A stretch of DNA of 19,569 nt from Thioalkalivibrio sp. (lineage in GTDB: Bacteria > Pseudomonadota > Gammaproteobacteria > Ectothiorhodospirales > Ectothiorhodospiraceae). The stretch lies in the NCBI GenBank assembly GCA_007120575.1, contig SKNJ01000297.1, positions 1 to 19,569 of the forward strand. Direction: 5' to 3'. Each line of letters begins with the position of its first letter. Position 1 is the first letter of the stretch. The position numbers and the translations under genes are program-made. The notes beneath the pieces were generated by a model. The model ran no database searches. It had not been told where the DNA came from and saw nothing but the letters and a program-made list of their open reading frames with translations. Shown here piece by piece: positions 5,160 to 19,569 of the stretch.

Positions 5160-6487
5160 CGGCCGTTCTCCTCCAGGATGATGCGGCCGCGTACGCGATC
5201 GTCGCCGGTTTCGGCCTGGGTGATCCGGGTTGGCTGGCCGGCGGCCTCGCGCAGGGCCTCGCGGAGGTCCTCGAGACGCCGGATCGAGTCGGTTTCCAGT
5301 TCGATCTCCAGGCGGCTCGCGTCACCGCGCAGGCTGCGGATGGTGACCTGGCCGTTGTCGAAGGTCGTAGCGGTCGCCGCCAGGCGTTCGCCCAGCGGAC
5401 TGGCCGCGGCGGTGCCGGGGCCCGCGTCGCTGCCCCGTTCCAGTACGGCTCGGAACTGTGCGACCGGATCGACCATGCGGGTGCCGGGCAGGGCGCGTTC
5501 GAAGACGTCCTCGATGCCCTGATCCACGCGCTGCAACTCCTGTTCCAGTTGGTGGACCTCGAACCACAGGGTGGCCAGCCACACGAGGCCGAGGGCCGCG
5601 GCCAGCGCGGCGGGCCGTTTCAGGGTCTGCAGCAACGCACCGGGCGCGGCCCCAGGTTCGCTCCCGCGCGCCGCCAGGTTAAGGCTGCGTGCCTTGCGCA
5701 GCGCGCGGGCCAGTTGCCGGGCGTGGCCGGCATCGGCACCGCAGCAGGCGTTCAGCAGGCTGGTGACGGAACCGTCCCAGTTGCCCGGAAGGGTCGGCTC
5801 GCCCCGCGCGGGCTGTAGCCGGCCGGACCCCGCCAGGCGTTCCGGCACGTTGCCCTCGACCCGCACCGGGGGAGGGCTGGCATGGTCCTCGCCGTCCCCG
5901 GGGGCGGTATCCCCGGCTGGTGCGGCCGGGGCATGTGTCTGCAGCCACCAGTCGAGCAGCTCTGGGGGCAGCGCCAGGGGTTCGCTGTCCGGCTCCAGCA
6001 CCAGCGCGCGTCGGCTCCCGGAAAGGACCAGGGCCGTGGCGGCCGGCGCCCAGCCACGCAGCAGGCTGATGTCGGGCACCAGCGGGAGCGGTCCGAGGCC
6101 GTGTTCCTCCAGCCAGTCACGCCACTGATCGAGATCGCGATGCGCCACCACCGCTGCGGTGACTTGTGGCCCGCGACCGAACTCGGCGACGAAATGCAGC
6201 GCCTTGAGGTCCTCGCTGAGGCGGTCCTCCAGGGCGTAGGGCAGGGCCTGGCGCCGGGCGCGCGCGGACCCGGGCGGGAGGTCGACGCGATACAGCGGGG
6301 CGCGTTCGCCGGGCACCAGTGCGAGCACGCGGTCGCCCCGCACGATGCGCTGGCGCACTGCTTCCGGGGTATCCCGGCCGTGCTCCAGCGGGGTCCCGTT
6401 GGGGCGCAGGCGCAGCCAGCCCAGCATGGGTGCCTCGGGGCCCTGGAGGGCCTCGGGTTCCGGGAGCTCCAGCAGTATCCAGGTCAT
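5156..6487 (-). CDS. gspL: Type II secretion system protein L
   Basis: Links the cytoplasmic ATPase GspE to the inner-membrane platform. The 443-residue product has a cytoplasmic actin-like (ASKHA-fold) domain over about residues 1-250, including RRQALPYALEDRLSEDLKAL (about 78-97), a segment well conserved in GspL. A single transmembrane helix covers about 291-309, followed by a coiled coil and a periplasmic ferredoxin-like domain to the end. There is an acidic, Pro/Ala-rich linker around residues 180-220. It starts 45 bp after gspK, the widest gap between core genes apart from the gspI region, and has only a weak Shine-Dalgarno (AAGG about 12 bases away). It overlaps gspM by four bases. Confidence 0.92.
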   Translation of the reverse strand: MTWILLELPEPEALQGPEAPMLGWLRLRPNGTPLEHGRDTPEAVRQRIVRGDRVLALVPGERAPLYRVDLPPGSARARRQALPYALEDRLSEDLKALHFVAEFGRGPQVTAAVVAHRDLDQWRDWLEEHGLGPLPLVPDISLLRGWAPAATALVLSGSRRALVLEPDSEPLALPPELLDWWLQTHAPAAPAGDTAPGDGEDHASPPPVRVEGNVPERLAGSGRLQPARGEPTLPGNWDGSVTSLLNACCGADAGHARQLARALRKARSLNLAARGSEPGAAPGALLQTLKRPAALAAALGLVWLATLWFEVHQLEQELQRVDQGIEDVFERALPGTRMVDPVAQFRAVLERGSDAGPGTAAASPLGERLAATATTFDNGQVTIRSLRGDASRLEIELETDSIRRLEDLREALREAAGQPTRITQAETGDDRVRGRIILEENGR

Positions 6488-6532
6488 GCGTTGGTGGCCT
6501 TGAGGTGATTCACGGGATCCGGTGGTTTGGGG

Positions 6533-7372
6533 TCAGGGTTCGCAGGCGGAGGCCTCGCGCAGGACCGTCCGTCCGTTCGGGGCATCCAGTATGGCGCATT
6601 GAAAATACTCGCGTTGACCCATGCGGGCAACGACCTGGAGGCGGAAGTAGCGGGTATCGCGGGTTTCCTCCACCGCGCTTTGCTGTACCGCGCGCAGGAC
6701 CGGATCAGGTGCGAGATCGAGGTTGATCGCGTTGTCCCGGGTCGGGAGCGCGACCACCCAGGGGGCGATCGCCTCCCACAGTTCGCGATCGAAGCCCTCG
6801 ATCGACAGCAGCTCGGAGGCCGTGAGCAGGGGCCGGTTGCCGCTACGGCGGGGCGGGTCCATGCCCAGATAGACCGGGTTGTCGGTCTCCGGGTCCATCC
6901 AGTCCTGCACCGCCAGGGCCAGGGTGTTGCCGCGCACCCTGGACAGTCCGGCATCCAGCGCCGCCCGGTCCAGGAGTTCGGCGAACGCGGCGACCGGCGG
7001 GTCCTCGGGGCGCCCCAGGGCATTGATGTTGAACCGACAGTGCAGGTTCTCCAGCCGCGCGGAGACGGTCACCCCCTCCACCTGCAGCGGGATGCGCGGT
7101 GATGTGCAGCCCTCCCACGGCAGGTCGTCGTAGCCCGGCATGCGTTCCAGCAGATGCAGGGTCACCGCCTCCGCGCCGGACTGCAGGGCACGCGCGCGTT
7201 CGGCCTCCTGCAGGATGGTGGCGCGGTACGTCTGTTGCTGGTCGCGGGTGGTGATCGCGACCGCGGCGATCGAGGCGAGTGCCAGCACCAGCAGCACGGT
7301 CAGCAGCGCGGCACCCTCGTGGCGGGCGCGGCGCTGGGGACGGGTACGGATGGGTTGCGGGCGGAAGATCAT
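6533..7372 (-). CDS. gspK: Type II secretion minor pseudopilin K
   Basis: Large tip pseudopilin that caps the T2SS pseudopilus with GspI and GspJ. The 279-residue product has a basic prepilin leader ending RRARHEG, cleaved before AALLTVLLVLALASIAAVAI. Position +5 of the mature protein is Thr rather than Glu, the hallmark of GspK. The periplasmic part contains the conserved segment FNINALGR and the helical insertion (WMDPETDNPVYLGMDPP, ASELLSIEGFD) shared by the family. Four Cys in the mature part could form disulfides. The start is ATG 7372, overlapping the gspJ stop as ATGA; an upstream extension of the frame is spurious. It is somewhat shorter than enterobacterial GspK (about 320 residues). 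Confidence 0.93.
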   Translation of the reverse strand: MIFRPQPIRTRPQRRARHEGAALLTVLLVLALASIAAVAITTRDQQQTYRATILQEAERARALQSGAEAVTLHLLERMPGYDDLPWEGCTSPRIPLQVEGVTVSARLENLHCRFNINALGRPEDPPVAAFAELLDRAALDAGLSRVRGNTLALAVQDWMDPETDNPVYLGMDPPRRSGNRPLLTASELLSIEGFDRELWEAIAPWVVALPTRDNAINLDLAPDPVLRAVQQSAVEETRDTRYFRLQVVARMGQREYFQCAILDAPNGRTVLREASACEP

Positions 7373-8043
7373 GGTCGGCGGGGGAGCGCGATGCGGCGCT
7401 CGATCGCCCCCAGCTCGGGGTCCTCGAACGCGAGGATGACCTGGGCCGGGACCGGGGCGTTGTCGGCCGTGGTGCCTGCCCCGACCGGCGGCCAGTCCGC
7501 GCGGGTCTCGCCGGTCTGGCGCGAGACGAACGCGAAGCGGATCGCCTGTGGGGTCTCCCGGCGCCCGTTCTGGTTCCATTCGCGGTGGCTCCCGGTGCCA
7601 GAGGTGCGCAGGAACTGGCGGGTCGTGCCCGCGTCCTCGGGGGCCCCGTCGATAATCGACGAACTGTAGCGTTCCAGGCCGGTCGGCGTGATCCGCCACT
7701 CGACCCGGGCCAGACGCCGGTCGCCGCCCAGCCCCGCACGCACCAGGCGCAGCGCCTGTGGTTCGGTGTACGGGCTGTAGGACAGCGGGGGCTGGCGATC
7801 GCCGAACTGGTCGCGGGGCGCGACCGGCACCGCGTGGCGCAGGTCGCGCTCCAGCAGGGCCAGCATCACCTCGACCTCGGCCAGGCGTGTGCTCTGGTCC
7901 TGGGTGATGCGGTCCGCCTGCAGGACCGAATGCAGACCGCCCACCGCCAGGGTACCGACGATGGCGAAGATCGCGACCGCGACGATCAGCTCCAGCAGGG
8001 TGAAGCCGGTGGTGCGTGACGGCCGGCGGTCAGGGCAGTGCAT
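7369..8043 (-). CDS. gspJ: Type II secretion minor pseudopilin J
   Basis: Minor pseudopilin of the T2SS tip complex. In its 224 residues the prepilin peptidase site is Gly13/Phe14, followed by FTLLELIVAVAIFAIVG with the conserved Glu at mature position +5 (Glu18). The mature domain has the expected GspJ features, including LALLERDLRHAV after the helix. It overlaps gspI by 14 bp at its start and gspK by four bases at its end. Length and order (I-J-K) are canonical. Confidence 0.94.
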   Translation of the reverse strand: MHCPDRRPSRTTGFTLLELIVAVAIFAIVGTLAVGGLHSVLQADRITQDQSTRLAEVEVMLALLERDLRHAVPVAPRDQFGDRQPPLSYSPYTEPQALRLVRAGLGGDRRLARVEWRITPTGLERYSSSIIDGAPEDAGTTRQFLRTSGTGSHREWNQNGRRETPQAIRFAFVSRQTGETRADWPPVGAGTTADNAPVPAQVILAFEDPELGAIERRIALPRRP

Positions 8044-8695
8044 AGCCGGTTACTCGGGCGCTGGGCGTATCGCGACCGGTGCGCGCCATCGGGTGCACGC
8101 GGATGTCGATACGCAGGATGGTGGGCAGGGTGAGCGGGGCGTCCAGTTCGACGTCTTCGATGCGGATGCGCGCCTCCCAGTCCTGCCCGGCCAGGGTCTC
8201 CTCTACCCGGTGTTCGCCGGGCCGCGTGGGCCGCAGGCCGGCCTCGTAGTCGGCCAGCAGATTCCGGCCCACCCAGGTGGCCTGGGCGCGCTCCTTGAGG
8301 TAGGCCGTATTACGGGCATGCTCGCTGCCGGACTGGATCAGCGCACCGAGGGCGACCGCGAGGATCACCAGGGCGACCAGGATTTCCAGCAGGGTGAAGC
8401 CGCGCGCACGGCGTTGCGGCTCCCTTGTGCAGAACGACTGCACGGCCGTCGCCGCGCCTTGTTCGCACGCAAAAGCGACTCGAGCGCGAGCGTGTGCGTG
8501 AATCAGTGTTTCCCTGGGAGCCTGTCGGACTTGGGACGGATCTGCTGCGCGTGTGGGACAGTGGTCCCTTTTTCCGCTCTCTCTCGTTACAGAGTCCCCA
8601 CTATGCGCCTCGAGAGACCGAAAAAATGGTCTCACTCTCCCATCACGCTCGCGACGAGCGCCCAAATCCGACAGGCTCCTAGCGGCGCTGGGCAT
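8030..8695 (-). CDS. gspI: Type II secretion minor pseudopilin I, leader enlarged by an inserted repeat
   Basis: Minor pseudopilin that nucleates the tip complex with J and K. The mature region is clear: cleavage after Gly99, then FTLLEILVALVILAVALGAL with Glu at +5, and a 122-residue mature protein of normal GspI size. The N-terminus is abnormal. ATG 8695 has GGGGGA five bases upstream and overlaps the end of gspH by 17 bp, as expected for the ancestral start. But from the fifth or sixth codon the frame runs through the 165-bp element at 8516-8680, adding about 55 foreign residues in frame, then about 39 more before the cleavage site. An alternative is GTG 8443, which would give a normal 15-residue leader but has no clear ribosome site and lies in a GTGCAG/CTGCAC hairpin. 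Which start is used cannot be decided here. Confidence 0.85.
   Translation of the reverse strand: MPSAARSLSDLGARRERDGRVRPFFRSLEAHSGDSVTRESGKRDHCPTRAADPSQVRQAPRETLIHAHARARVAFACEQGAATAVQSFCTREPQRRARGFTLLEILVALVILAVALGALIQSGSEHARNTAYLKERAQATWVGRNLLADYEAGLRPTRPGEHRVEETLAGQDWEARIRIEDVELDAPLTLPTILRIDIRVHPMARTGRDTPSARVTGYALP
8516..8680. mobile_element. 165-bp MITE-like palindromic element at the gspH/gspI junction
   Basis: Termini at 8516-8535 and 8661-8680 are inverted repeats matching at 18 of 20 positions (core GGAGCCTGTCGGA). Inside, a second near-perfect pair of arms (about 8567-8586 and 8611-8630, TTTTTCC/CTCTCTCG against CGAGAGACCG/AAAAAA) surrounds a 24-bp centre, so the strand folds into a long hairpin. 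It is AT-richer than its surroundings and encodes no transposase, which is the profile of a non-autonomous element. The gspH stop TAG is formed across its right edge. Its length is a multiple of three, so the gspI frame stays open. No obvious target duplication is seen; the neighbouring 8441-8515 may also be foreign. Confidence 0.7.
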
Positions 8696-9272
8696 GCCGT
8701 TCCCCCAGGGTGCGGGATTCGCCGTCGCCGAGATCCACGGCGAGCCGGCCGCCGACGGTGGTGTGGATACGCAGTTCCCCGGGCTGGCCGGGGCGTGTGA
8801 GTTCGACCTCGAACGGGGTGATCCGGCCGTCGGGATGCAGGAAGATCAGCGCGCGATCCGGGTCGTCGTCGAGGGTGGCGCGCTGTCCTTCGACGTGCAC
8901 ACGGATCCGCAACCCCTGCCGCTCGAAGTTCACCGGTGCCAGGGTGCCGTGCGCGATCGGTTCCCAGGCGAGCTGGCCCTCGTCCAGCCAGATGCCTTCC
9001 AGGATGGCCATGCGCCCCTCGCTGAAGCCGACCGCGCGGCGCTGCCCGGTCAGCAGGGCCTCGTCGCTGGCAAGCTGGATCTGGCTGGCCAGACGCAGCG
9101 CGGTCTGCTCCATCTGGCGGCTGCCGGTCTGGGCCACCGAGAGGACCGCGACACCGGTAATCAGGCCGACGATGAACAGCACCACCAGCAGTTCGATCAG
9201 GGTGAAGCCCGTGCCCCGGGGAGGGGCCGAGGCCTGCCGTCGCGGCGAGGCAAGGGCCCGGACCGGGGCCAT
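8679..9272 (-). CDS. gspH: Type II secretion minor pseudopilin H
   Basis: Minor pseudopilin joining the tip complex to the GspG shaft. The 197-residue product has a 22-residue leader with cleavage at Gly22/Phe23 and FTLIELLVVLFIVGLITGVAVL with Glu27 at +5. The mature part has the GspH beta-sandwich pattern (QIQLASDEALLTGQRRAVGF near the helix, ITPFEVELTRP late). Its ATG follows the gspG stop with no gap. The TAG stop is created at the right edge of the inserted element at 8516-8680, so the present C-terminus (ERHAQRR) may differ from the ancestral one. Confidence 0.92.
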   Translation of the reverse strand: MAPVRALASPRRQASAPPRGTGFTLIELLVVLFIVGLITGVAVLSVAQTGSRQMEQTALRLASQIQLASDEALLTGQRRAVGFSEGRMAILEGIWLDEGQLAWEPIAHGTLAPVNFERQGLRIRVHVEGQRATLDDDPDRALIFLHPDGRITPFEVELTRPGQPGELRIHTTVGGRLAVDLGDGESRTLGERHAQRR

Positions 9273-9728
9273 TCAGAAGTCGTCCAGGTTCCAGTTGCCG
9301 ATCTCGGCGTTGACGCCGTCGCCGCCGCGCCGACCATCGGCGCCGTAGCTGAAGATGTCGATGTCGCCGTGACGCCCGGGGTTCAGGTACTGGTAGTCGT
9401 GGCCCCACGGGTCGCGCGGCAGGCGATCGAGATAGCCGCCGTCGCGGTATTGGGGGGCCTCGGGGCCGCTGGTCGGGCGCTCCACCAGGGCCTCCAGGCC
9501 CTGTTCCGTGGTCGGGTACTGGTAGTTGTCGAGCCGGTACAGGTTGAGTGCGCTCTCGATGGTGCGGATGTCCTGCTTGACCTTGGTGATGCGCGCCTCG
9601 TCCGGGCGGTCCATTACCCGCGGGACGACCACCGCGGCGAGGATGCCGAGGATCACCACGACCACCATGATCTCGATGAGAGTGAAGCCGCGCGCGTGTC
9701 GGCGCGAGCGTGCGGGATGCGATGTCAT
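9273..9728 (-). CDS. gspG: Type II secretion major pseudopilin G
   Basis: Major subunit of the pseudopilus shaft. The 151-residue product has a 14-residue basic leader, cleavage at Gly14/Phe15, and FTLIEIMVVVVILGILAAVV with Glu19 at +5. The core is strongly conserved (ALNLYRLDNYQYPTTEQGLE, RLPRDPWG, YQYLNPG), and the C-terminal loop FSYGADGRRGGDG...IGNW carries the acidic residues that bind calcium in characterised GspG. It starts two bases after the gspF stop and is immediately followed by gspH. Length is typical. Confidence 0.98.
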   Translation of the reverse strand: MTSHPARSRRHARGFTLIEIMVVVVILGILAAVVVPRVMDRPDEARITKVKQDIRTIESALNLYRLDNYQYPTTEQGLEALVERPTSGPEAPQYRDGGYLDRLPRDPWGHDYQYLNPGRHGDIDIFSYGADGRRGGDGVNAEIGNWNLDDF

Positions 9729-9730
9729 GT

Positions 9731-10957
9731 TCAGTTCACCAGTTGGTTGAGGTCGAATATGGGCAACAGTATGGCCAGCACGATGGTCAGGACAATGCCC
9801 CCCATGGCGAGGATCATCAGCGGTTCCATCAGCCCCATGCTGACGCCGATACGGGCCTCGACCTCGCGTTCCTGCGCCTCCGCGGCACGATCCAGCATGT
9901 CGGTGAGGCTGCCGGAGGACTCGCCGCTGCGGATCAGCAGGACCATGGTGGGCGGGAAATAGCGGGTGGTCTCCAGGGCCTGGCCGATCCCGCTGCCTTC
10001 CTGCACGCGCCGGGTTGCCTCGTCGACCGCCGCGCGCATGGGCCGGTTCCCGATCACGCTGGCCCCGGTGCGCATCGCCTCGAGCAAGGGCACGCCGCTG
10101 GCGGCCAGGATACTGAGGGTGCGGGCAAAGCGCGCGGTGTTGATGCCGCGGATCAGCGGCGCGATCAGCGGCAGGCGCAGCAGCAGGCGATCCAGGCGCA
10201 TGCGCGGTCCGGGCCGCCGCAGCCAGCGTGCCAGCAGGATACCGCCGGCCACCAGCACGCCGAGGGCGATCAGGCCGTAGTCGCGTGCGGCATCGCTGAT
10301 CGCGATCAGGGCACGGGTCAGGACCGGGAGCTGCTGGTCGATGCCGGCGAAGACCTGCACCACCTCGGGGACCACGTAGACGACCAGTGCCAGGGTGACC
10401 GCGATGGCCACCAGCGTCAGAATGATCGGGTAGATCATGGCCAGCGCGACCTTCTGGCGCAGGGCGTGGCGGCGCTCAAGGTAGTCGGCCAGGCGCTCCA
10501 GTACGCCATCCAGGTGGCCGGAGCTCTCGCCGGCCGCGACCGTGTTGCGGTAGATGTCCGGGAACACGTTGGGAAACTGGCCCAGCGCCTGGGCCAGGCT
10601 GTGGCCCTCCATTACGCGGGTGCGTACCCCGGTGAGCACGTTGCGGATCTTGCGTTTCTCGGTCTGGCGGGCGACCGCGCCCAGCCATTCCTCCACCGGC
10701 AGGCCGGCGCGCGCCAGGGTGGCCATCTGACGGGTCGCGAGCGCGAGATCCAGCGGACTGACCGCCCCGGTGCGCGACTCCAGGGTGCCGCGTCGGGTGC
10801 CGGCGCCGCCGGACTGGGCCCCGATCTCGCGCAGGCTGACCGGGGTCAGCCGGTCCTCGCGCAGGCGCGTGCGCACGTTGCGCGCGGTGTCGCCTTCCAG
10901 TACCCCTTTGCGGGTGCGGCCGGAGGCGTCCAGGGCCTCGTATTCGAACGCCGGCAT
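9731..10957 (-). CDS. gspF: Type II secretion inner-membrane platform protein F
   Basis: Polytopic inner-membrane protein at the centre of the T2SS platform, contacted by GspE and GspL. The 408 residues contain two related cytoplasmic domains, each with a GESSG motif (residues 143-147 and again in the second half, GESSGSL), and three transmembrane segments (about 171-197, 226-245 and 376-402). The start MPAFEYEALDASGRTRKG is typical of GspF. It begins seven bases after the gspE stop and ends two bases before gspG. Length and domain order match the family. Confidence 0.97.
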   Translation of the reverse strand: MPAFEYEALDASGRTRKGVLEGDTARNVRTRLREDRLTPVSLREIGAQSGGAGTRRGTLESRTGAVSPLDLALATRQMATLARAGLPVEEWLGAVARQTEKRKIRNVLTGVRTRVMEGHSLAQALGQFPNVFPDIYRNTVAAGESSGHLDGVLERLADYLERRHALRQKVALAMIYPIILTLVAIAVTLALVVYVVPEVVQVFAGIDQQLPVLTRALIAISDAARDYGLIALGVLVAGGILLARWLRRPGPRMRLDRLLLRLPLIAPLIRGINTARFARTLSILAASGVPLLEAMRTGASVIGNRPMRAAVDEATRRVQEGSGIGQALETTRYFPPTMVLLIRSGESSGSLTDMLDRAAEAQEREVEARIGVSMGLMEPLMILAMGGIVLTIVLAILLPIFDLNQLVN

Positions 10958-10964
10958 CGTGGGG

Positions 10965-12533
10965 TCAGCCCTCGTGGGTGATGCGCATCAGTTCCTCGAT
11001 GCTGGTGGTGCCGTCGAGGACACGTGCGATCGCACTGGCGCGCAGGTTCGGGCCCTGCCTCCGCGCGACCTCGCCCAGCGCCTGTTCGCCGGCTCCGTCG
11101 TGGATCAGGGTGCGCAGCTCGTCGGTCGTCTCGACCAGCTCGTAGATGCCACAGCGGCCGCGGTAGCCGAGCTGGTGGCATTCGGGGCAACCAGCCGGGT
11201 GGTGGATGGTAGGGGGCTGCGCCGGGTCGGCGTCCAGCAGCTCGCATTCCCAGGGGGTCGCGGGGCGCGCCTCGCGGCATTCCGGGCACAGTACGCGTAC
11301 CAGCCGCTGCGCGAGGATCCCGCTCAGGGTGGAGGACAGCAGGAAGGACTCCACGCCCATGTCACGCAGCCGGGTGATCGCGCCCACCGCGGAGTTGGTG
11401 TGCAGGGTGGAGAACACCAGGTGTCCGGTCAGGCTGGCCTGAATCGCGATCTGCACGGTGTCCAGGTCGCGGATCTCGCCGACCATGACCACGTCCGGAT
11501 CCTGGCGCAGGATCGCGCGCAGGCCGCGGGCGAAGGTCATGTCGATGCGGGTATTGATCTGGGTCTGGCCGATGCCGTCCAGGTAGTACTCGATCGGGTC
11601 CTCGACCGTCAGGATGTTGCGGCTGCGATCGTTCAGGCGCTCGAGGCCCGCGTACAGGGTGGTGGTCTTGCCCGAGCCGGTCGGCCCAGTGACCAGTACG
11701 ATGCCGTGCGGGCGGTGGATCAGGCGCTCGAAGGTCTCGAGCATGGCTGGTGGCATCCCGATTTGCGCCAGATCCAGGCGCCCGGCGTGCTTGTCGAGCA
11801 GGCGCATCACTACGCGCTCGCCATAGCCCGACGGGAGGGTGGAGACGCGTACATCCACCGCGCGTCCAGCCAGGCGCAGGGAGATGCGGCCGTCCTGCGG
11901 CAGGCGTTTTTCCGCGATATCCAGGCGTGCCATCACCTTGATACGCGACACGATCAGCGAGGCCAGCCCGGCCGGCGGATTGAGGATCTCGCGCAGCACG
12001 CCATCCACCCGGATGCGCACCGCCAGGCGGGTCTCGAACGGTTCGATATGGATGTCGGAGGCGTTCTCGCGCACCGCCTCTGTCAGCAGCGCGTTGATCA
12101 GGCGGATGATCGGCGCGTCGTCGTCGGCCTCCAGCAGGTCCTGCGGCTCGGCCAGGGATTGCGCGACCGCGCTGAGGTCCAGGTCCTCGTCCAGACCGGT
12201 GACCGACTGCATGGCCTCGGAGCTCGACGACTCGAAGCTCTCGCGCAGGCGGTGCTCGAAGGTGTCGTCGTCGACCGTCTCCAGTTCCAGTGCCTCGGCG
12301 CTGCGTCGGCGCAGTTCGATGACCGCCAGTGGGTCCGCGTCGCGGCGCACGTAGATGCGCCGTCGGCCATCGATCAGCGGACCGGGCAGGGTGCCGGAAC
12401 GCCGGGCGAAGCCGTAGCTGGTTTGCAGGTGCTGGCCGGTTTCCTCGGGGGTCATCCGATTTCCGCTCCCGCCCGGTGCGTGCGGGCTGCCCGGACCGGA
12501 TGATCGCTGGCCGCTCGCCTCGTCACGGGGCAT
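10965..12533 (-). CDS. gspE: Type II secretion ATPase E
   Basis: Cytoplasmic hexameric ATPase that powers pseudopilus assembly. In 522 residues: N-terminal domain (to about 130) that binds GspL, then the N2E and catalytic domains. Walker A GPTGSGKT is at 283-290, the Asp box VEDPIEY near 310-316, the Walker B region [14 protein letters not shown] at 343-356, the His box STLHTN at 375-380, and a four-Cys zinc site (CPEC at 416-419 and 449-452). ATG 12533 overlaps the gspD stop as TGATG with AGGA three bases upstream; ATG 12455 (MTPEETGQ), with GGGAG ten bases upstream, is a reasonable alternative that would drop 26 low-complexity residues. Confidence 0.97.
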
Positions 12534-14551
12534 CAGTCCTGGCGCCGGAAGGCGCGGCTGGGTTGCAGTGCCTCCGGCATCGAGCTGTCCACGTTGCCTG
12601 CCCGCACCTCGGCGAAGCTCGGGGGGAGGCGGGTCAGGCGTTCCCAGGATGGCAGGGTCGGGCTGCTATCCTTGTCCTGGCGTGCGCGCTCGCGGATCTG
12701 CTCGCCGCGGATGTAACTGTACTTCGCGCTGGTCAGCTCGTTGCCGCGCGAGGAATCGCGCACGATCCGCGGGTGCAGGAATACCATCAGGTTACGCTTT
12801 TCCACGCTGCTGCTGTCGGAACGGAACAGGCGCCCGATCCCGGGGATCTGGCCCAGTCCCGGGACCTGGCTCCGGGTGTCCTGCTGTTGTTCCTCGATCA
12901 GTCCTCCGAGTACCAGCATGTCGCCGTCGTCCACCAGCACGTGGGTGCGCAGGGAGCGGGTGTTGGTGATCAGGTCGGCCGCGCCGGTGGTGCCCGGGGC
13001 CAGCTGCGAGACCTCCTGTTCGATCTCCAGGCGTACCGCATTGCCCTGGTTGATCTGCGGGCGCACCCGCAGCTTCACGCCGACGTCTTCGCGGCGGATG
13101 GTATCGAAGGCCTGCCCGGAGTCTTCCAGCGAGCGGCCGACCACGAATGGGACATTCTGGCCGACCACGATCTCGGCCTCCTCGTTGTCCAGGGTCAGCA
13201 GGCTGGGCGTGGACAGGATGTTGCTGGAGGTATCCGTCTGCAGCAGGTTGATCAGGGCCGCGATCTGGGTGCTCCCGGAGGTGCCGATCCCGCCCACGGT
13301 GAGACCGTCACCGACTCTTGGCGGGCTTTCCACGCGTCCGTCGAGGAATGCGTCTACCCCGGCGGCGATCCCCAGGATGCCGCCGTCGTTGCGGTCGAAG
13401 TTGAGGAGCCCGGCCGCGCGGCTGCCGACCGCGCCCCACTGCACGCCCAGTTCGCGCGCGCGGTCCGAAGAGACCTCGGCGATCACTGCCTCGACCAGCA
13501 CCTGGGCCCGACGCACGTCCAGGCGTTCGATCACCGAATCGAGGTCATCCAGGATGTCGGCCGGGCCCAGCAGGACTACCGCGTTGGTGCTCTCGTGAGC
13601 CTGGATGTGGATGCCGTTGCGCGAGCTGGCGCGGCCGCCGGTCTCGCCGGTGGCCTCTTCGTGGCGCGCCTCGGCAATCCCCGCCAGCAGGTCGGCCACG
13701 TCCTCGGCGCGTGCGTAGCTGAGGTAGTGCACGCGGGTATTGCCGCCCTCGGTGCGGCGATCCAGCTGGCCGACCAGGGCGCGCACCGACAGGCGGGCCT
13801 CGGGGCTGCCGGAGAGGATCAGCGCGTTACTGTCGGGCTCGGCGACGATCCGTGCGCGGCTGCGCCCGGGGATGTCATCGCGTTCGGAGAGCAGGTTGCG
13901 GATGCGCTCGGCGAGGATTTCGGCGCGCGCGTGTTCCAGTTCCATGACGTCGAATTCCTCCGACATCGGCTGGTCGATGCGGTCGACCATCGCGCGGATG
14001 CGGCGCACGTTCGCGGTGGTATCGGCAATCACCAGGGTATTGGATTCGGAGGCGGCCGCGAGGTGCCCGCTCTGCGGCAGTAGCGGCCGCAGGATCGGTA
14101 CCAGCTGGGCGGCCGAGACATGGTTGACCTCGATCACCTGGGTGACGAAGTCGTCCGGACGGGTCGCCGGGCTGCCGGGGATCGATTCTTCGTCCAGTAG
14201 TGGCACCGCATCCTGCTTGGCCTGGGCATCCGGAACGATGCGCGTCGCCCCGGAGCCGGGGATCGCGGAGAAGCCGTAGACCCTCAGGATGCCCAGGAAC
14301 AGGTCCATCAGTTCGTCGCGCGCGACCGGCTGGCCGGATACCACGGTGACATTCCCGCGTACCCGCGGGTCGACGATGAAATTGGTGCCGGTCTCCTCCG
14401 AGACCAGATCGATGAAATCCCGGATCTCGGTATCGCGCAGGTTCAGCGTGAGCGTGTCGTCGTCCGCCTGTGCCGCCAGCGACAAGCAAAGCGAAACCAG
14501 GACGGTCAGCGTGATGGTGACTTGGCGGAGAGACATTCGCATGCGATCCAC
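12533..14551 (-). CDS. gspD: Type II secretion secretin D
   Basis: Outer-membrane channel of the T2SS. The 672-residue precursor has a Sec signal peptide (hydrophobic 11-26, cleavage after AQA at residue 29), then N0 (about 33-108), N1 (135-198), N2 (199-268) and N3 (272-345), and the secretin core (about 349-597) with [42 protein letters not shown], and the [12 protein letters not shown] block. A short S-domain-like helix follows (about 605-630), the usual pilotin contact. GTG 14551 gives the longest frame; ATG 14542 or 14536 would remove three or five residues. It is the first gene of the operon, with no gspC before it. A tandem 14-bp repeat lies 31-61 bp upstream. Confidence 0.97.
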
Positions 14552-14831: not shown

Positions 14832-14847
14832 TGGCACGGTTTCTGCT
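14832..14847 (+). promoter_or_regulatory. Sigma-54-type (-24/-12) promoter before the TusA-YedE cluster
   Basis: TGGCACGGTTTCTGCT matches the TGGCAC-N5-TTGC consensus with one mismatch and the exact GG/GC spacing. A start about 12 bases downstream of the GC would leave a leader of roughly 90 nt before the ATG at 14949. A second site with the same TGGCACG-N5-TGCTT layout lies at 18086-18102. No experimental support; a chance match cannot be excluded for one site alone. Confidence 0.5.
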
Positions 14848-14948: not shown

Positions 14949-15293
14949 ATGTATTTTCCCTGGATAGGCAAAAGAAAACGTGAAGGCAGGCGTTCCGGAA
15001 TGCAGTCAACCTTGAACGAGAACCGAGAGACCCGGGAAGTGGAAATTCGTGGCCTGGGAGTCATGAAAGTGGCGCGCTCCGTGAATTGCATCGGAGACGG
15101 TTGTCCGAAGCCGCAGTTACTGACGCTCAAGGCGCTGAATCAGCTGCCGGAGGGGAGCGTCGTCGAGCTGATATCGGACAACCCCACTGCGGTGGAGACC
15201 ATCCCGAGCATGATGATGGCCGCCTATGGCAGTCATCTTGCGACGATCCGGGACGATTCGTACTGGAAGGTCTACGTCCGCAAGGGCATCTGA
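14949..15293 (+). CDS. TusA-family sulfur carrier with N-terminal extension
   Basis: Small cytoplasmic sulfur-relay protein. The core (from about residue 39) has the TusA fold pattern and the CPxP motif as GCPKPQ, with Cys52 as the persulfide site and a second Cys (47) five residues before it. Then comes SDNPTAVETIPSMM, the usual TusA second-helix region. From ATG 14949 the product is 114 residues, with about 38 extra at the N-terminus, beginning MYFPWIGKRKREG, short and very basic. That start has AGGAGG at 14934-14939, the best ribosome site available. ATG 15000 and ATG 15063 would give shorter forms, the latter a classic 76-residue TusA. It lies 66 bp before the YedE gene. Established knowledge: TusA-type proteins (TsuB) are paired with TsuA thiosulfate transporters, which is the likely partnership here. 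Confidence 0.88.
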   Translation: MYFPWIGKRKREGRRSGMQSTLNENRETREVEIRGLGVMKVARSVNCIGDGCPKPQLLTLKALNQLPEGSVVELISDNPTAVETIPSMMMAAYGSHLATIRDDSYWKVYVRKGI

Positions 15294-15359
15294 GTCGGCC
15301 GCCCGTTGCCGGTTTCCGAGACCCATATCATTCACAAAACACAAGAGTCGGGGGTTTAA

Positions 15360-16820
15360 ATGAGCAATGAAGTCTGTGGCGCGGGTGGATCGCGCGCCGG
15401 TGGTGTATCGGTCAAGCACCGGGGTGGTTTCAACGCCGCCGTGATCGTGGGCATTGTCGCGTTGCTGTCGGCGATCGTGCTCGCCTACGACGCGGATTAT
15501 CTCTACCTGCTGGTGTATATCTGGTTTGGCGTGGCCTACGGGTTGTTCCTGCAGTACGGCCGGTTCTGCATGGCCTCCGCGGTGCGCGATCTGTTCGCGG
15601 TCGGCGTGCCACGCATGGCGGTGGGCGTGATGATCGCCGTGGTGCTGTATTCCCTGACCGCGGCGGCGGTGACCATGGGTGGGTTCAGCACCTTCCACGC
15701 GAATCCGCTGGGCTGGCACATCATCATCGGCGGAGCGATCTTCGGCTTCGGGATTATCTTCACCGGTGGTTGTGCATCGTCGTCCCTGTACAAGAGCGGC
15801 GAAGGCAATGTGGGCTCGATGCTGGTGCTGGTGGCGATCTCCTTCTCGCAGGCGATCTTTGTCTCCAGCGAGTGGTTCAGCCAGTTCGTGCCGGCCTCCT
15901 GGACCGAGTCTGCGCTGGACAAGCGCATGCCCGAGGAGCTGGATGTGACCTCCACCTGGTTTGACCAGTTCATGACCGGGTACATCTGGGACCTGAGCGG
16001 CGGTACGGTCGCCCAGATGATGGGGCAGCCCGACACCTTCATGGGCATCTTTATCGGGAATGCCCTGCTGGGGGCGATCCTGCCCACCTTCGCCATCCTG
16101 GTGTTCCTCTACGTCGTGGCCTTCCGCAAGGGCTACATGCGTCGCGAAAAGATCGAGAACCCGGCATTCGGGGATCACCTGCGCGGCATGTGGGCGATGT
16201 TCACCTCGTCCAAGAACACCGCCATCGCGGGTCTGGGTATCGGTGTCTTTGCCGGCCTGCAGATGTGGGTGACCGGCGCGCTGCGGCAGAAGTACGACAT
16301 CCTGAACTTCGGCGAGATGCTGGAACGCAAGGGCTTTTACGAGCAGGTTTCCCTGCAGGGCACCGTGTTCGATCCGGGCTACTGGTACATCACCACCCAG
16401 GAGGCCCAGTGGGGCGGCTGGGTCATGGACAAGATCGGCTTCGAGAACATGGAGCGCAACATCTTCTTCGGCCTCGAGAACGGTCTGCCCAACCCGCTGC
16501 TGAATGCCCCGGGGATGATGTCCATCGGGATCATCCTGGGCGCCGCGGTGATCGCCAACATCAACCGCGAGTTCAAGTGGAAGCTCCCGAGCATGGAGAC
16601 CGCCATCTTCGCCCTGATTGGGGGCACGTTGATGGGCATCGGTGCGCGGGTCGGTATGGGCTGTAACGTCGGCGCGTTCTTCGCGGCGGTTACCAACGGT
16701 GACCTCACCGGCTGGATCTTCCTGGCGGGCATGACGATTGGCGGTTTCTTCGGCGTGCGTGCCCTGACCCGCTGGATGGAGTGGCGTGCGTCGCGCAATG
16801 ACGACGAGTTCGCGCTATAG
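15360..16820 (+). CDS. YeeE/YedE (TsuA-type) sulfur-compound transporter, long form
   Basis: Inner-membrane protein of 486 residues with many hydrophobic helices (for example about 26-43, 47-65, 82-104, 119-137, 225-243, 388-404, 446-465). It carries the three signature cysteines of the thiosulfate transporter family: GRFCM (Cys70), TGGCASS (Cys138) and MGCNVG (Cys435), each in a glycine-rich half-helix. Members relay thiosulfate through these cysteines. It is about 130 residues longer than typical members. The extra length lies in two polar, Trp/Phe- and acid-rich segments (about 178-222 and 305-380), probably outside the cytoplasm. It sits between two TusA genes. The substrate could be thiosulfate, polysulfide or another sulfane species; selenium transport, also known for YedE relatives, is less likely because no selD is adjacent. 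Confidence 0.92.
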   Translation: MSNEVCGAGGSRAGGVSVKHRGGFNAAVIVGIVALLSAIVLAYDADYLYLLVYIWFGVAYGLFLQYGRFCMASAVRDLFAVGVPRMAVGVMIAVVLYSLTAAAVTMGGFSTFHANPLGWHIIIGGAIFGFGIIFTGGCASSSLYKSGEGNVGSMLVLVAISFSQAIFVSSEWFSQFVPASWTESALDKRMPEELDVTSTWFDQFMTGYIWDLSGGTVAQMMGQPDTFMGIFIGNALLGAILPTFAILVFLYVVAFRKGYMRREKIENPAFGDHLRGMWAMFTSSKNTAIAGLGIGVFAGLQMWVTGALRQKYDILNFGEMLERKGFYEQVSLQGTVFDPGYWYITTQEAQWGGWVMDKIGFENMERNIFFGLENGLPNPLLNAPGMMSIGIILGAAVIANINREFKWKLPSMETAIFALIGGTLMGIGARVGMGCNVGAFFAAVTNGDLTGWIFLAGMTIGGFFGVRALTRWMEWRASRNDDEFAL

Positions 16821-16833
16821 CGCAAGTGGCAAC

Positions 16834-16861
16834 AACCCCGGGGGCTGTGCCCCCGGGGGTT
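16834..16861 (+). terminator. Strong GC hairpin between the YedE gene and the second tusA
   Basis: AACCCCGGGGGC and GCCCCCGGGGGTT pair over 12 bp with one bulged C around a TGT loop, starting 13 bases after the transporter stop. There is no T-tract after it, so complete termination is unlikely. It more plausibly attenuates transcription or protects one mRNA fragment, giving unequal levels of transporter and small relay proteins. Confidence 0.55.
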
Positions 16862-16898
16862 CCCGAACTTTCAAGACAACGTTAAGGAGAGAACACGC

Positions 16899-17150
16899 AT
16901 GGGCGTCAAGTTCGAAAAAGTAGAAGACGGTCAGTACATGCTGGACGTAAAGGGCTACACCTGCCCGCACCCGCAGATGTATACCAAGAAGGCGCTGCAG
17001 AAACTGCAGTCCGGTGACGTGCTCACCCTGGTGTTCGACAACGCCTCTTCCGGCGAATCGGTGATCTCGATGTGCGAGTCCGAGGGCAATGACCTGTTCG
17101 ATCGCGCCGATGATGGCGGCACATTCACCTGGAAGATCCGCAAGGGGTAA
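16899..17150 (+). CDS. TusA-family sulfur carrier protein
   Basis: An 83-residue single-domain TusA-like protein with the CPxP motif as TCPHPQ (Cys22 the expected persulfide carrier), followed by MYTKKALQKL and SGDVLTLVFDNASSGESV, the usual TusA strand and helix. A second Cys (59) lies in the late helix. The start ATG is preceded by AAGGAGA at a good distance. It differs from the first TusA of the cluster in sequence and lacks its N-terminal extension, so the two probably serve different steps. The DsrE-like gene starts five bases after its stop, so they are co-transcribed and likely partners in sulfur transfer. Confidence 0.93.
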   Translation: MGVKFEKVEDGQYMLDVKGYTCPHPQMYTKKALQKLQSGDVLTLVFDNASSGESVISMCESEGNDLFDRADDGGTFTWKIRKG

Positions 17151-17155
17151 GGGCT

Positions 17156-17467
17156 ATGGAGCTGGGAATCTGTGTCGTGGACGACCGCTGTGCCCCGCAC
17201 GCGATCGGCCTGCTGCAGGCCGCGCAAAACCGGGGCTGGGATACGCGGTGCTTTCTGACCGACCGCGGCGTGCATCTGCTCAATGATGCCGACTTCCGTG
17301 CGCTACTGGACTCCGGCAAGGGTCACTTCTCGATCTGCGAGCTGAGCATCGACCGCTATGCGGATGCCGGGGTCTCGGTCGAGGGGCTGGAGGATCGCAT
17401 TGTGGTGGGCGGTCAGTACCAGAACGCCGAACTGGTCCATAACAGCGACCACGTCATTGTCTTTTAG
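17156..17467 (+). CDS. DsrE-like small sulfur-relay protein
   Basis: A 103-residue protein with the alternating strand/helix pattern of the DsrE/DsrF family: starting strand LGICVVDD, helix APHAIGLLQAAQNRG, then FLTDRGVHLL, the Cys-containing ISICELS strand (Cys61), and the ending SDHVIVF strand. The segment after Cys61 and GGQYQNAELVHNSDHV look like DsrE relatives. Four cysteines (6, 12, 32, 61) are available; Cys61 best matches the position of a conserved sulfur-carrying Cys. It is shorter than classic DsrE/TusD (about 130). It follows tusA by five bases, and its stop codon overlaps the ribosome site (AGGAG) of the next gene. Family call is by pattern, moderate certainty. Confidence 0.7.
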   Translation: MELGICVVDDRCAPHAIGLLQAAQNRGWDTRCFLTDRGVHLLNDADFRALLDSGKGHFSICELSIDRYADAGVSVEGLEDRIVVGGQYQNAELVHNSDHVIVF

Positions 17468-17475
17468 GAGATTTC

Positions 17476-17733
17476 ATGAGCGATAACGCGAAACGCATTC
17501 TGGTGGTTGCGCGCGACGACAAGGTCGAAGCGCTGCGCATGGCAACCGGCCTCACCCTCCTCGACGACGAGATCCGGGTGGCGGTCCTGGGCGAGCTGGA
17601 CGAGAACTCCGACGATGTCCAGCTGCAGCTCGAGTCGCTGGACTTTGCGGATGTACCGGTCGAGCGCGTGACCGAAGGCCCCCGGGCAGTGGCCGGGATG
17701 ATGTTGAATTCCGACGCGGTGTTTTTTGTATGA
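17476..17733 (+). CDS. Very small DsrE-superfamily-like protein
   Basis: An 85-residue protein I do not recognise exactly. It begins with a strand (RILVVARDD), then a helix EALRMATGLTLLDD and strand IRVAVLG, a layout often seen at the start of DsrE/F proteins, and ends with a hydrophobic strand (SDAVFFV) as DsrE-type subunits do. It has no Cys, so it could not carry sulfur itself; a structural subunit like DsrF/TusC is possible. ATG 17476 follows TAGGAG, which overlaps the stop of the preceding gene. It overlaps the next gene by four bases. Strongly acidic. Function is inferred from neighbours only. Confidence 0.6.
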   Translation: MSDNAKRILVVARDDKVEALRMATGLTLLDDEIRVAVLGELDENSDDVQLQLESLDFADVPVERVTEGPRAVAGMMLNSDAVFFV

Positions 17734-17945
17734 GCGAATCGAATAGCAAGGTGCTGTTTCTGAAGCTGGCTGGTGCGGACGATGGGTTCGCACAGGAACT
17801 CCTCGCCGGCCTGGACGGGAGCGATGCCACCCACGAGGTGCAGGACCTCTCCGCGGGCGATTACGACGCGGTGCTCGATCGGCTGGGGCCCGGGGTCCTG
17901 CCGGTGGTACTGCGCCCGGCGATACCCGGAGCGGGAGCGGCCTGA
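17730..17945 (+). CDS. Small hypothetical protein in the sulfur-relay operon
   Basis: A 71-residue protein without recognised family. It begins with a polar stretch, then strand VLFLKLAG, helix GFAQELLAGLDG, an acidic middle, and a hydrophobic end LPVVLRPAIPG. No Cys and no signal peptide. It overlaps the preceding gene by ATGA, so it is translated with it. By position it is the third of three consecutive small proteins, as DsrH/TusB follows DsrF/TusC, but similarity to DsrH is not evident. Coding is supported by the overlap and the absence of a better frame; the last residues are GC-driven and less certain. Confidence 0.5.
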   Translation: MSESNSKVLFLKLAGADDGFAQELLAGLDGSDATHEVQDLSAGDYDAVLDRLGPGVLPVVLRPAIPGAGAA

Positions 17946-18023
17946 GGCCGGCGCGGCCCGCCCCGGGATCCCTCGGCGGATGCGATTGCAGTTTGCCGAT
18001 GGGGTCTGGAACGGGTCTTATTT

Positions 18024-18053
18024 TGCAATCACCGTGAATCGTGATGGATTGCA
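18024..18053. promoter_or_regulatory. TGCAATC...GATTGCA dyad, possible activator site
   Basis: TGCAATC (18024-18030) and GATTGCA (18047-18053) are perfect 7-bp inverted arms about 16 bp apart; a further GATTGCA lies at 17984-17990. The group sits 33-100 bp upstream of the sigma-54-type -24 element, where enhancer-binding activators bind. Similar TTGCAAATC and ATTGCA sequences lie upstream of the first sigma-54-type site. Function is inferred. Confidence 0.4.
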
Positions 18054-18085
18054 CAACCCAGTGAAAAATAAAAGAAAAGAAGGTA

Positions 18086-18102
18086 TGGCACGCAGCGTGC
18101 TT
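18086..18102 (+). promoter_or_regulatory. Sigma-54-type (-24/-12) promoter before the rhodanese gene
   Basis: TGGCACGCAGCGTGCTT matches TGGCAC-N5-TTGC with one mismatch and correct GG/GC spacing. It has the same TGGCACG-N5-TGCTT layout as the site at 14832. It is preceded by an A-rich tract (18064-18082). The predicted start leaves about 150 nt of leader. Confidence 0.5.
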
Positions 18103-18260
18103 GCATCCAGGAGTGTCGAGTAGGCACGAGCAGGATCGGTTCGATGGCGAACTCGTCGGTGGACCCGGTTGGGAACCCGCCAGGCACGTAGCGACCGCGC
18201 CGTACACCCCGAAGACCGGGTGCCGGTGCCAAGATCAATAACACAGGAGGGGTTTCGAAA

Positions 18261-19569
18261 ATGCGAAAGGCAACAACTTCACCCAGTTTTGCCCGGGCGT
18301 CGGGCACGGTTACCGCGCTCGCCGCGCTCGGCCTGCTGCTCACCGGTTGTGGCGGCGGCGAGAGCTCCAGCTCGGCCAACCCGGCAGTGCAGACGGTCAA
18401 TTCGCCGGCGCAGATCGCCCGCGAATCCGCGGAAAACTATCATGACAACGTCAATGGCCTGATCACCGGCCAGACCCTGATGCGCTGGATCGACGACTGG
18501 CAGAACAACCGTCCGGATGGCATTGATGGTCGCCTGGTTATCCTGCAGGTCACACAGGGTACCGAAGGTAATGAATACATTACCCCCAAGCCTCAGGAAG
18601 GCGTGCTGACCTACCGAATCGACGATAACCGTCTTACGCAGGTGCGCTCCAATGGCGTGATCGAGACGGTCCAGATGGTTCCGGATGGCCCCAGCGTTGA
18701 CAGTATTCTTAAGGACTACAACCTGGACCCGCGCAATGACATGATCGTTTGGGTGGTGGCCGATGGTGGTTTCGGCAACCTGATGCGCCAGGGCCGCGGC
18801 TGGTACATGATGCGCTACTGGGGTACCCCGCATGACAACCTGGCGCTGCTGAACGGGCTCGCGGTGCACGATGCGGTCATGGATCAGAGCTACCTGGGTA
18901 GTGTCGCGACCTGTGACGAACTTGTCAGTAATGGCAACTGCCTGCCGCGCAATGGCACGGTCTCGGTGAGGGACCTGCCGGAAGACAACATCTCGTTGCA
19001 GGCCACTGTCGAGGATGTGATCCGAGTGGCTGACGGACACGACGACGCCTTTATCTGGGATGCGCGTTCGCAGAACGAGTACACCGCGTGGACGGGTGTC
19101 CGTGATGGCCGCCATCGGGGTATCGACTTCCGCGCTAATGCCTCCATGCAGGGGCATCCCAACGGCGCGGTGGTGCTGCCGTATGCCAACATGCTGATGA
19201 GCGACGGAACCCTGCGCTACAAGCCCAAGGATCAGCTCTGGGCCTACATGAATGGCGAACAGGTCGATGGCGCGATGTTCGAACGCTATGAGGCGGGTTC
19301 GCTGATCCCGGTGGGTCCGGGGAATGCCTATCAGGCCGGTCAGGACAGCATCACCTACTGCGAGACGACCTTCCGCGCGATGATCACGGGCTTCGCCACC
19401 GCGGCGATCCTGGGTCTGCCGAACCGGTTCTACGACGGTGCAATGGTCGAGTGGAACTCGCTGTCCGGCGGTGTCCAGGACAAGTTCGGTTCCTTCATCC
19501 TGCCAGCCGATTCGCCGTGGCGTACTGATCTGCCGATGCGCTCGCATTTCGAGTACAACACCCCGGCGG
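18261..19569 (+). CDS. Exported tandem-rhodanese lipoprotein (3' end outside window)
   Basis: The frame is open to the window end; 436 residues are visible. The signal ends in lipobox LLTGC with Cys30, followed by a Gly/Ser linker, so the protein is lipid-anchored and faces the periplasm or beyond. Two rhodanese-like domains follow (about 55-200 and 245-410). In the first, the place of the active Cys is taken by Asp168 (VVADGGFGN), so it should be inactive. In the second, DARSQNEY (from Asp267) and the active loop YCETTFR (Cys367) are intact, followed by ILGLPN and the FYDGAMVEW end strand. Cys218 and Cys227 in the linker may form a disulfide. This plan matches thiosulfate or mercaptopyruvate sulfurtransferases. 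ATG 18261 has AGGAGG nine bases upstream. It probably supplies or accepts sulfane sulfur outside for the neighbouring transporter and TusA system. Confidence 0.88.
   Translation, partial: MRKATTSPSFARASGTVTALAALGLLLTGCGGGESSSSANPAVQTVNSPAQIARESAENYHDNVNGLITGQTLMRWIDDWQNNRPDGIDGRLVILQVTQGTEGNEYITPKPQEGVLTYRIDDNRLTQVRSNGVIETVQMVPDGPSVDSILKDYNLDPRNDMIVWVVADGGFGNLMRQGRGWYMMRYWGTPHDNLALLNGLAVHDAVMDQSYLGSVATCDELVSNGNCLPRNGTVSVRDLPEDNISLQATVEDVIRVADGHDDAFIWDARSQNEYTAWTGVRDGRHRGIDFRANASMQGHPNGAVVLPYANMLMSDGTLRYKPKDQLWAYMNGEQVDGAMFERYEAGSLIPVGPGNAYQAGQDSITYCETTFRAMITGFATAAILGLPNRFYDGAMVEWNSLSGGVQDKFGSFILPADSPWRTDLPMRSHFEYNTPA

Follow-up and report, generated by a model that had tools for sequence, protein, structure and literature searches.

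Introduction

The YTD cluster (yedE-tusA-dsrE-chp-chp, with chp for conserved hypothetical protein) has been known since a report of 2026 as the source of the DsrEFH type II complex (PMC13293266), which is also modelled in PMC13047784. In vitro, the Electronema proteins transfer sulfur from TusA to DsrE (Cys67) and on to DsrC, the exchange between TusA and DsrEFH type II being bidirectional and the step from DsrEFH type II to DsrC unidirectional (PMC13293266). The complete cluster was found only in Desulfobacterota and Nitrospirota among 111 proteomes (PMC12998232), and Pseudomonadota account for 21% of the published YTD subtype 1 (PMC13293266); sulfur disproportionation is discussed in PMC12998232, PMC9751629 and PMC8780430. 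Here we describe a 19,569-nucleotide stretch of DNA from Thioalkalivibrio sp. (the window, which is the whole of contig C270 of its host bin) whose + strand genes from position 14949 to the contig end open a probably sigma-54-controlled operon of about 13 genes. With moderate confidence, we propose that this operon takes up extracellular sulfane sulfur and delivers it to the sulfur-oxidation machinery of the cytoplasm.

Sulfur import into the cytoplasm has been called poorly understood (PMC11582611), and the passage of solid or polymeric extracellular sulfur through both membranes of sulfur oxidisers is an open question. Two sentences of PMC12142623 suggest outer-membrane polysulfide import for a Desulfurivibrio dismutans porin encoded beside lipoprotein sulfurtransferases and YeeE, and yeeE, rhd and tusA transcripts are reported in D. 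alkaliphilus (PMC12545173).

Gene content and conservation of the operon

The seven window genes encode TusA1, YedE, TusA2, a protein resembling DsrE, a pair of short acidic proteins and a lipoprotein of the rhodanese type, in the order and on the strand given by an original prediction made from the sequence of the window. They are listed below with the promoter element upstream; the Pfam cut-offs are 28.6 (TusA), 27 (Sulf_transp), 22.7 (DsrE) and 22.2 bits (rhodanese).

14832..14847, + strand: sigma-54-type (-24/-12) promoter element, TGGCACGGTTTCTGCT, with 11/12 informative consensus bases
14949..15293, + strand: TusA1, a TusA-like sulfur carrier of 114 aa with a C-x4-CPKP motif (PF01206, 52.6 bits)
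15360..16820, + strand: YedE/YeeE-type inner-membrane sulfur transporter, long form, 486 aa (PF04143, 159.7 bits)
16899..17150, + strand: TusA2, a YTD-type TusA of 83 aa with a CPHP motif (PF01206, 64.2 bits)
17156..17467, + strand: DsrE subunit of DsrEFH type II, 103 aa, with candidate active Cys61 (hhalign to canonical DsrE)
17476..17733, + strand: DsrF subunit of DsrEFH type II, 85 aa, without cysteine, as supported by a fold test
17730..17945, + strand: putative DsrH subunit of DsrEFH type II, 71 aa, without cysteine, by position
18261..19568, + strand: ExtH-like rhodanese lipoprotein with lipobox Cys30 and the active-site motif YCETTFRA at Cys367; its reading frame runs off the contig

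Because the window is a whole contig, the lipoprotein gene is open at 19568 and the listed genes make up no more than the operon's first half; the original prediction named the right set, and the genes behind it lay out of its sight. The window genes are the 5' half of an operon of about 13 genes. A species-level genome collection was searched with YedE, using peptide patterns that favour close relatives, and yielded 28 loci. The 21 named loci (L004-L023 and L029) come from Thiobacillus, Thiohalomonas, Thioalkalivibrio, Hydrogenophilaceae and other beta/gammaproteobacteria. As far as the contigs reach, all 21 are collinear, in the order TusA1-YedE-TusA2-DsrE-DsrF-DsrH-ExtH-pentaheme cytochrome-CxC protein-triheme cytochrome-ExtI-PAS kinase-sigma-54 activator; conservation of this neighbourhood had been set beforehand as a check on which the prediction could fail, and on this one it did not. 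TusA1 and YedE are present in 21/21 loci, and TusA2, DsrE, DsrF, DsrH and the rhodanese ExtH in all 20 with a contig long enough. The pentaheme cytochrome follows in 19/19, the CxC protein, triheme cytochrome and ExtI in 18/18, the kinase in 17/17 and the activator in 16/16, the falling denominators reflecting the contig ends of L020 (inside YedE), L012, L008, L018 and L022. An activator homologue elsewhere on the L012 contig is a paralogue. For the three loci that end before ExtI (L008, L012, L020), ExtI is present elsewhere in the genome (3/3).

In the host bin (2.15 Mb, 344 contigs, 67% complete), contig C31 (4.2 kb) is cut within ExtI, behind which the kinase and the activator follow in the same orientation; identity to L004 is 67-77%. 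Its ExtI scores 327.1 bits, and that of L004 343.1 bits, over the NF040900 cut-off of 150 bits. The host cytochrome and CxC genes would lie in the gap between C270 and C31. The window TrpD shares 87% identity with its counterpart in G223, a genome of the same genus, so contig C270 belongs to the bin; the next best match, at 73%, is from the same family, and bin contamination was rejected. This comparison found no TrpD match in G337, and GspE by itself did not decide the matter.

We surveyed 369 genomes of the class, the host included. A long YedE occurs in 17 of them (8 at ≥63% identity, 9 at 47-53%), and ExtI exceeds its curated cut-off in 9. All 8 genomes with YedE at ≥63% identity fall among the 9 ExtI genomes (hypergeometric P 1.1e-15, treating genomes as independent), and ExtI was over the cut-off in 0/9 of the class genomes with YedE of 47-53% identity. 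A further 20 genomes, which match ExtI under the cut-off at E up to 1e-20 (29/369 in all), were set aside as other porins. The ninth ExtI genome, G267, carries TusA1, DsrE, DsrF, ExtH, both cytochromes, ExtI, the kinase and the activator in one stretch that lacks TusA2; its transporter consists of two half-YeeE genes of ~200 aa before TusA1, the C-terminal half first (L077 277-1599; L057). Such half-YeeE transporters are known as PmpA and PmpB (PMC11582611), and the G267 variant is a natural test of whether the long YedE and TusA2 pair. The operon set is split by contig ends in G334 and G026, with a kinase-activator pair upstream in G026.

In a YedE tree of 37 rows, a branch supported at 100/100 sets the 25 Ext-linked rows apart. 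The same-genus G223 (99% complete) gave no match to YedE, ExtI or dsrA, so the operon is patchy, though the contig belongs to the genus. The other seven loci (L024-L028, L030, L031), from Nitrospirota, one Actinomycetes bin and one other, carry YedE-TusA2, three with DsrE and two with DsrF upstream. ExtI was found in 0/7 of these YTD-bearing genomes outside the beta/gammaproteobacteria, and on this sample, which did not reach the Desulfobacterota, an extension of the Ext link to other phyla was rejected; PMC5877670 names ExtI homologues in Desulfobacterota. The one gene resembling ExtH among the seven loci (60 bits) lies where the contig of L028, from Nitrospirota, ends.

Cytoplasmic and inner-membrane core

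Both TusA1 cysteines are kept in 22/22 aligned sequences. We preferred the start ATG 14949 over ATG 15000 (97 aa) for a similar basic N-terminal stretch seen by eye in several orthologues. The regions of the three cysteine motifs of YedE can be aligned with TsuA (6leo), and C70, C138 and C435 are kept in 22/22. The window YedE misses both TsuA cut-offs (NF052577 and NF041049; 93.8 of 400 and 85.9 of 645 bits) and both cut-offs for selenium YedE (NF033796 and TIGR04112; 136.3 of 350 and 53 of 200 bits). TusA2 C22 is kept in 21/21 true TusA2 proteins (22/22 rows, the L020 row being its TusA1).

The scores with the selenium models bear on another reading of the operon, namely a selenium/tellurium system in which ExtI, ExtH and the cytochromes reduce selenite or tellurite while YedE, TusA and DsrE handle the selenium formed, either to detoxify it or to supply selenoprotein synthesis. 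The NCBIfam names ExtI and ExtH derive from a selenite/tellurite operon, and loss of ExtI in Geobacter is reported to impair selenite and tellurite reduction (PMC5877670). We nevertheless consider this system quite unlikely: YedE matches the selenium models only below their cut-offs, the genus-named hosts (Thiobacillus, Thiohalomonas, Thioalkalivibrio) are sulfur oxidisers, soxB and dsrA are common in the operon genomes, and Electronema DsrEFH type II is described as a sulfur transferase in vitro (PMC13293266).

The window DsrE matches Pfam DsrE weakly (15 bits, E 0.028, under the cut-off) and aligns with the canonical DsrE profile in hhalign (93%, E 3.4e-7). PF02635 is matched by 21/32 DsrE relatives at E up to 0.1, and Cys61, which we infer to be the counterpart of Electronema Cys67, is kept in 32/32. 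The two tiny proteins are acidic, as had been claimed (isoelectric points 4.12 and 4.11), belong to no Pfam family and sit where DsrF and DsrH lie. No NCBIfam family matched these two proteins or the window DsrE at E up to 1, and DsrEFH type I was rejected for the window after no match to the TusD/DsrE, TusC/DsrF or TusB/DsrH models. For tiny protein 1, Foldseek by itself listed nothing at E 0.001, and none of the 50 rows listed was recognisable by title as a DsrE/F-fold protein; in a second look at the structure matches, DsrE/F-fold rows ranked first. The protein thus shows the fold expected of DsrF in DsrEFH type II, which supports, from its predicted structure, its assignment as that subunit. 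Sequence-profile comparison was negative for both DsrF and DsrH, the latter in hhalign against canonical DsrH. Tiny protein 2 lies directly behind DsrF in 20/20 named loci and is putatively DsrH by its position.

The window combines a YeeE/YedE gene with three conserved cysteines beside tusA, a DsrE with a conserved candidate active cysteine and, next to it, a small protein of DsrF fold, as expected of a YTD cluster. Its core is not new: it has been published as the YTD cluster and now goes by the name yeeE-tusA-dsrEFH type II; the statement that no such system had been described was wrong for this part (PMC13293266).

Between yedE and tusA2, a GC-rich perfect inverted repeat (16836-16858; 10-base arms, 3-base loop, no T-run) may tune the expression of one gene relative to the other. 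A third host TusA (87 bits) is encoded in L001 (G000 C259), on the same contig as soxB.

Outer-membrane and periplasmic genes

The ExtH lipobox cysteine is present in 21/21 sequences and Cys367 in 20/21, the exception (L012) being cut by its contig end; the window rhodanese domain scores 19.8 bits in Pfam, under the cut-off of 22.2. The pentaheme cytochrome has five CXXCH motifs in 18/19, the other one (L008) again being cut off by the contig end. Invariant cysteines occur in YedE, TusA1, TusA2, DsrE, ExtH, the CxC protein and ExtI. The CxC protein (L004 7332-7619 and orthologues) is small and apparently exported, its CxC is invariant (18/18), and the member tested, from L005, had no match in Pfam or NCBIfam; it is perhaps the counterpart of Geobacter ExtJ.

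Foldseek places two substrate porins, OprP and OprO, in its top rows for ExtI. This result speaks against the operon being an outer-membrane electron conduit of the ExtHIJKL type to metals, metal sulfides or electrodes, in which the sulfur carriers would be accessory and take up sulfur freed from metal sulfides. Such a conduit would fit the pentaheme and triheme cytochromes, found in every locus whose contig extends to them, and Geobacter extHIJKL is listed as a putative conduit that, as the sole one, sustained up to 50% of the reduction of Fe(III) oxide and up to 75% of that of Mn(IV) oxide (PMC6148476). However, we recognised no outer-surface multiheme cytochrome among the 13 genes, and an extI mutant is reported as unchanged in Fe(III) citrate reduction (PMC5877670), so that we regard a conduit as unlikely.

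Regulation

The sigma-54 -24/-12 consensus is TGGCACGN4TTGCW. Scored against it, 21/22 loci have an element of 9 or more upstream of the TusA1 core, the exception being L007; 0.07-0.21 elements per 350 nt are expected by chance from each locus's own rate. The last gene of the operon encodes a sigma-54 activator (Sigma54_activat, 234 bits in L004). The histidine kinase before it (L004 9549-11000 and orthologues) has five cysteines in 20/20 sequences and a sixth in 19/20, and on this pattern is a candidate thiol, persulfide or redox sensor.

Sulfur metabolism of the operon genomes

SoxB together with a dsr cluster containing type I DsrE is a set known from sulfur oxidisers. SoxB is over its cut-off in 8/9 operon genomes, the exception being G337 (75% complete). 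dsrA is found in 6/9 (partial in the window's host) against 119/369 overall, and in four operon genomes (G309, G014, G240, G334) dsrA is accompanied by a type I DsrE that exceeds the cut-off, so that both DsrE types meet in one cell. The accompanying type I DsrF and DsrH were confirmed by test in G309, and fit by size and order in G014, G240 and G334. Two dsrA genes lie on different contigs of G334 (L071, L072), one with the type I DsrE cluster and the other followed by a DsrC-family gene. By contrast with this co-occurrence in the operon genomes, 4.7% of DsrEFH type II genomes are reported to carry oxidative dsrAB (PMC13293266).

These gene sets argue against sulfur disproportionation, in which the YTD core would have the role suggested for it in Desulfobacterota and Nitrospirota, with elemental sulfur (S0) supplied by the Ext part. 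The YTD cluster has been put forward as a disproportionation marker (PMC9751629), and its proteins are reported as more abundant during thiosulfate disproportionation (PMC12998232); its essentiality for the process, in turn, is called poorly supported (PMC13293266). With SoxB in 8/9 operon genomes and a type I dsr cluster in four, we hold disproportionation to be very improbable.

Neighbouring genes

Type II secretion genes occupy 4656-14551 of the window on the - strand, divergent from the operon (GspD identified by Pfam, the others by eye). Such genes also stand directly upstream of the operon in L020 (1-6957) and L021 (1-8439), and a gspC-type gene lies right behind the activator in five beta loci, L014-L017 and L019 (tested in L014). 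As a speculation, type II secretion might place ExtH at the cell surface.

Discussion

We propose the following route for sulfane sulfur. The substrate would be polysulfide, S0-derived or thiosulfate-type sulfur, which the ExtI porin would pass through the outer membrane. At the outer membrane or in the periplasm, ExtH, the CxC protein and the two cytochromes would capture or redox-activate it, as gene order and cysteines suggest. YedE would then carry the sulfur across the inner membrane along its three cysteines, a step modelled on what is known of the family, and TusA2 and/or TusA1 would accept it. By analogy with the published biochemistry of relatives, Cys61 of DsrE in DsrEFH type II would take the sulfur and hand it to DsrC and DsrAB where present, or else to another oxidation system. 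The kinase with its invariant cysteines and the sigma-54 activator would switch the operon on. The substrate, direction, order of transfers and chemistry of the pathway, like the role of the cytochromes, are what we infer. The original prediction of an envelope-to-cytoplasm relay fits this picture, within a system that is larger by ExtI, two multiheme cytochromes, the CxC protein and a two-component regulator; the idea survives in enlarged form and was partly pre-empted, for the core by PMC13293266 and for the porin by the polysulfide suggestion in PMC12142623.

Several observations weigh against the proposed sulfur uptake. The ExtH cut-off (NF040901, 200 bits) is missed by the window protein (111.4 bits, with its gene open at the contig end) and by the full-length L004 protein (103.2 bits), and the L004 pentaheme cytochrome misses the ExtKL cut-off (NF040886; 42.6 of 250 bits). 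The ExtI cysteine sits in a low-confidence loop of the predicted structure and may be structural; Geobacter ExtI is reported with one cysteine too (PMC5877670, PMC6148476), so this residue need not speak for sulfur, and the phenotype reported there for ExtI concerns selenite/tellurite reduction (PMC5877670). SoxB is present also in the operon-less G223 and thus has no specific tie to the operon. The operon genomes G026, G236 and G337 gave no dsrA match, two of the three being 99-100% complete; the sulfur sink is therefore not always Dsr, and G026 and G236 weaken Dsr as the only sink. Where a dsr cluster carries its own type I DsrE, as in four operon genomes, type II may be redundant.

The direction of flow also weighs in, since transfer between TusA and DsrEFH type II runs both ways in vitro. 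Such transfer would allow DsrEFH type II, TusA and YedE to send surplus sulfane sulfur out of the cell for deposition as S0 (PMC13293266). We give such export a very small chance: the YeeE-family proteins with a stated direction, namely TsuA, SoxT1A and zero-valent sulfur uptake proteins, are described as importers (PMC11582611), and DsrEFH type II passes sulfur to DsrC in one direction only (PMC13293266).

A more specific form of the uptake proposal is a cysteine-to-cysteine persulfide relay across both membranes, from the ExtI cysteine to ExtH and the CxC protein, YedE, TusA1/TusA2 and DsrEFH type II, with the cytochromes handling the electrons of S-S exchange and the cysteine-bearing kinase reading the cytoplasmic sulfur load. 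We put this forward tentatively, as a possible but doubtful mechanism. If true, it would be the first complete route, encoded in a single operon, by which zero-valent sulfur from outside enters a Gram-negative sulfur oxidiser; we know of no earlier one. In Thiobacillus and further sulfur oxidisers, the operon brings together candidates for every stage of the path and points to the cysteines that could be altered. ExtI and ExtH may serve sulfur (chalcogen) uptake.

Comparison with known systems

TsuA/TsuB (YeeE/YeeD) and SoxT (6leo; PMC11582611) share with the window YedE the family, three conserved cysteines and a cytoplasmic TusA-type partner. In contrast to the 339-aa TsuA chain, the window YedE is ~150 aa longer, and it falls under both TsuA cut-offs.

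The D. dismutans porin RS05170 is likewise co-localised with lipoprotein rhodaneses and YeeE (PMC12142623), whereas that organism belongs to another phylum and is said to have no DsrEFH; the section on RS05170 does not discuss cytochromes or a regulator.

Geobacter extHIJKL and extHIJKLMNOPQS are described with a rhodanese lipoprotein, a single-cysteine ExtI porin, a pentaheme cytochrome and a small periplasmic protein, as here (PMC6148476, PMC5877670). Unlike in Geobacter, no ExtM-P part was recognised among the 13 genes, the ExtH and ExtKL analogues remain under their cut-offs, the Ext genes share their operon with an importer of the inner membrane and with sulfur carriers of the cytoplasm, and control is by a sigma-54 two-component system rather than the LysR regulator of PMC6148476.

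In open-access literature, supplements excluded, we found no description of the joined operon or of a link between DsrEFH type II and ExtI, and the words 'porin', 'cytochrome', 'outer membrane' and 'rhodanese' are absent from the main text of PMC13293266. The YTD cluster of that paper has the same long YedE, YTD-type TusA, DsrE with one invariant cysteine and two small conserved hypothetical proteins behind it (DsrF and DsrH). In contrast to it, the operon described here adds TusA1 in front and ExtH, two cytochromes, the CxC protein, ExtI, the kinase and the sigma-54 activator behind, and some of its hosts also have dsr clusters and type I DsrE. It joins two literatures found apart, that of YTD and DsrEFH type II and that of the Geobacter Ext proteins.

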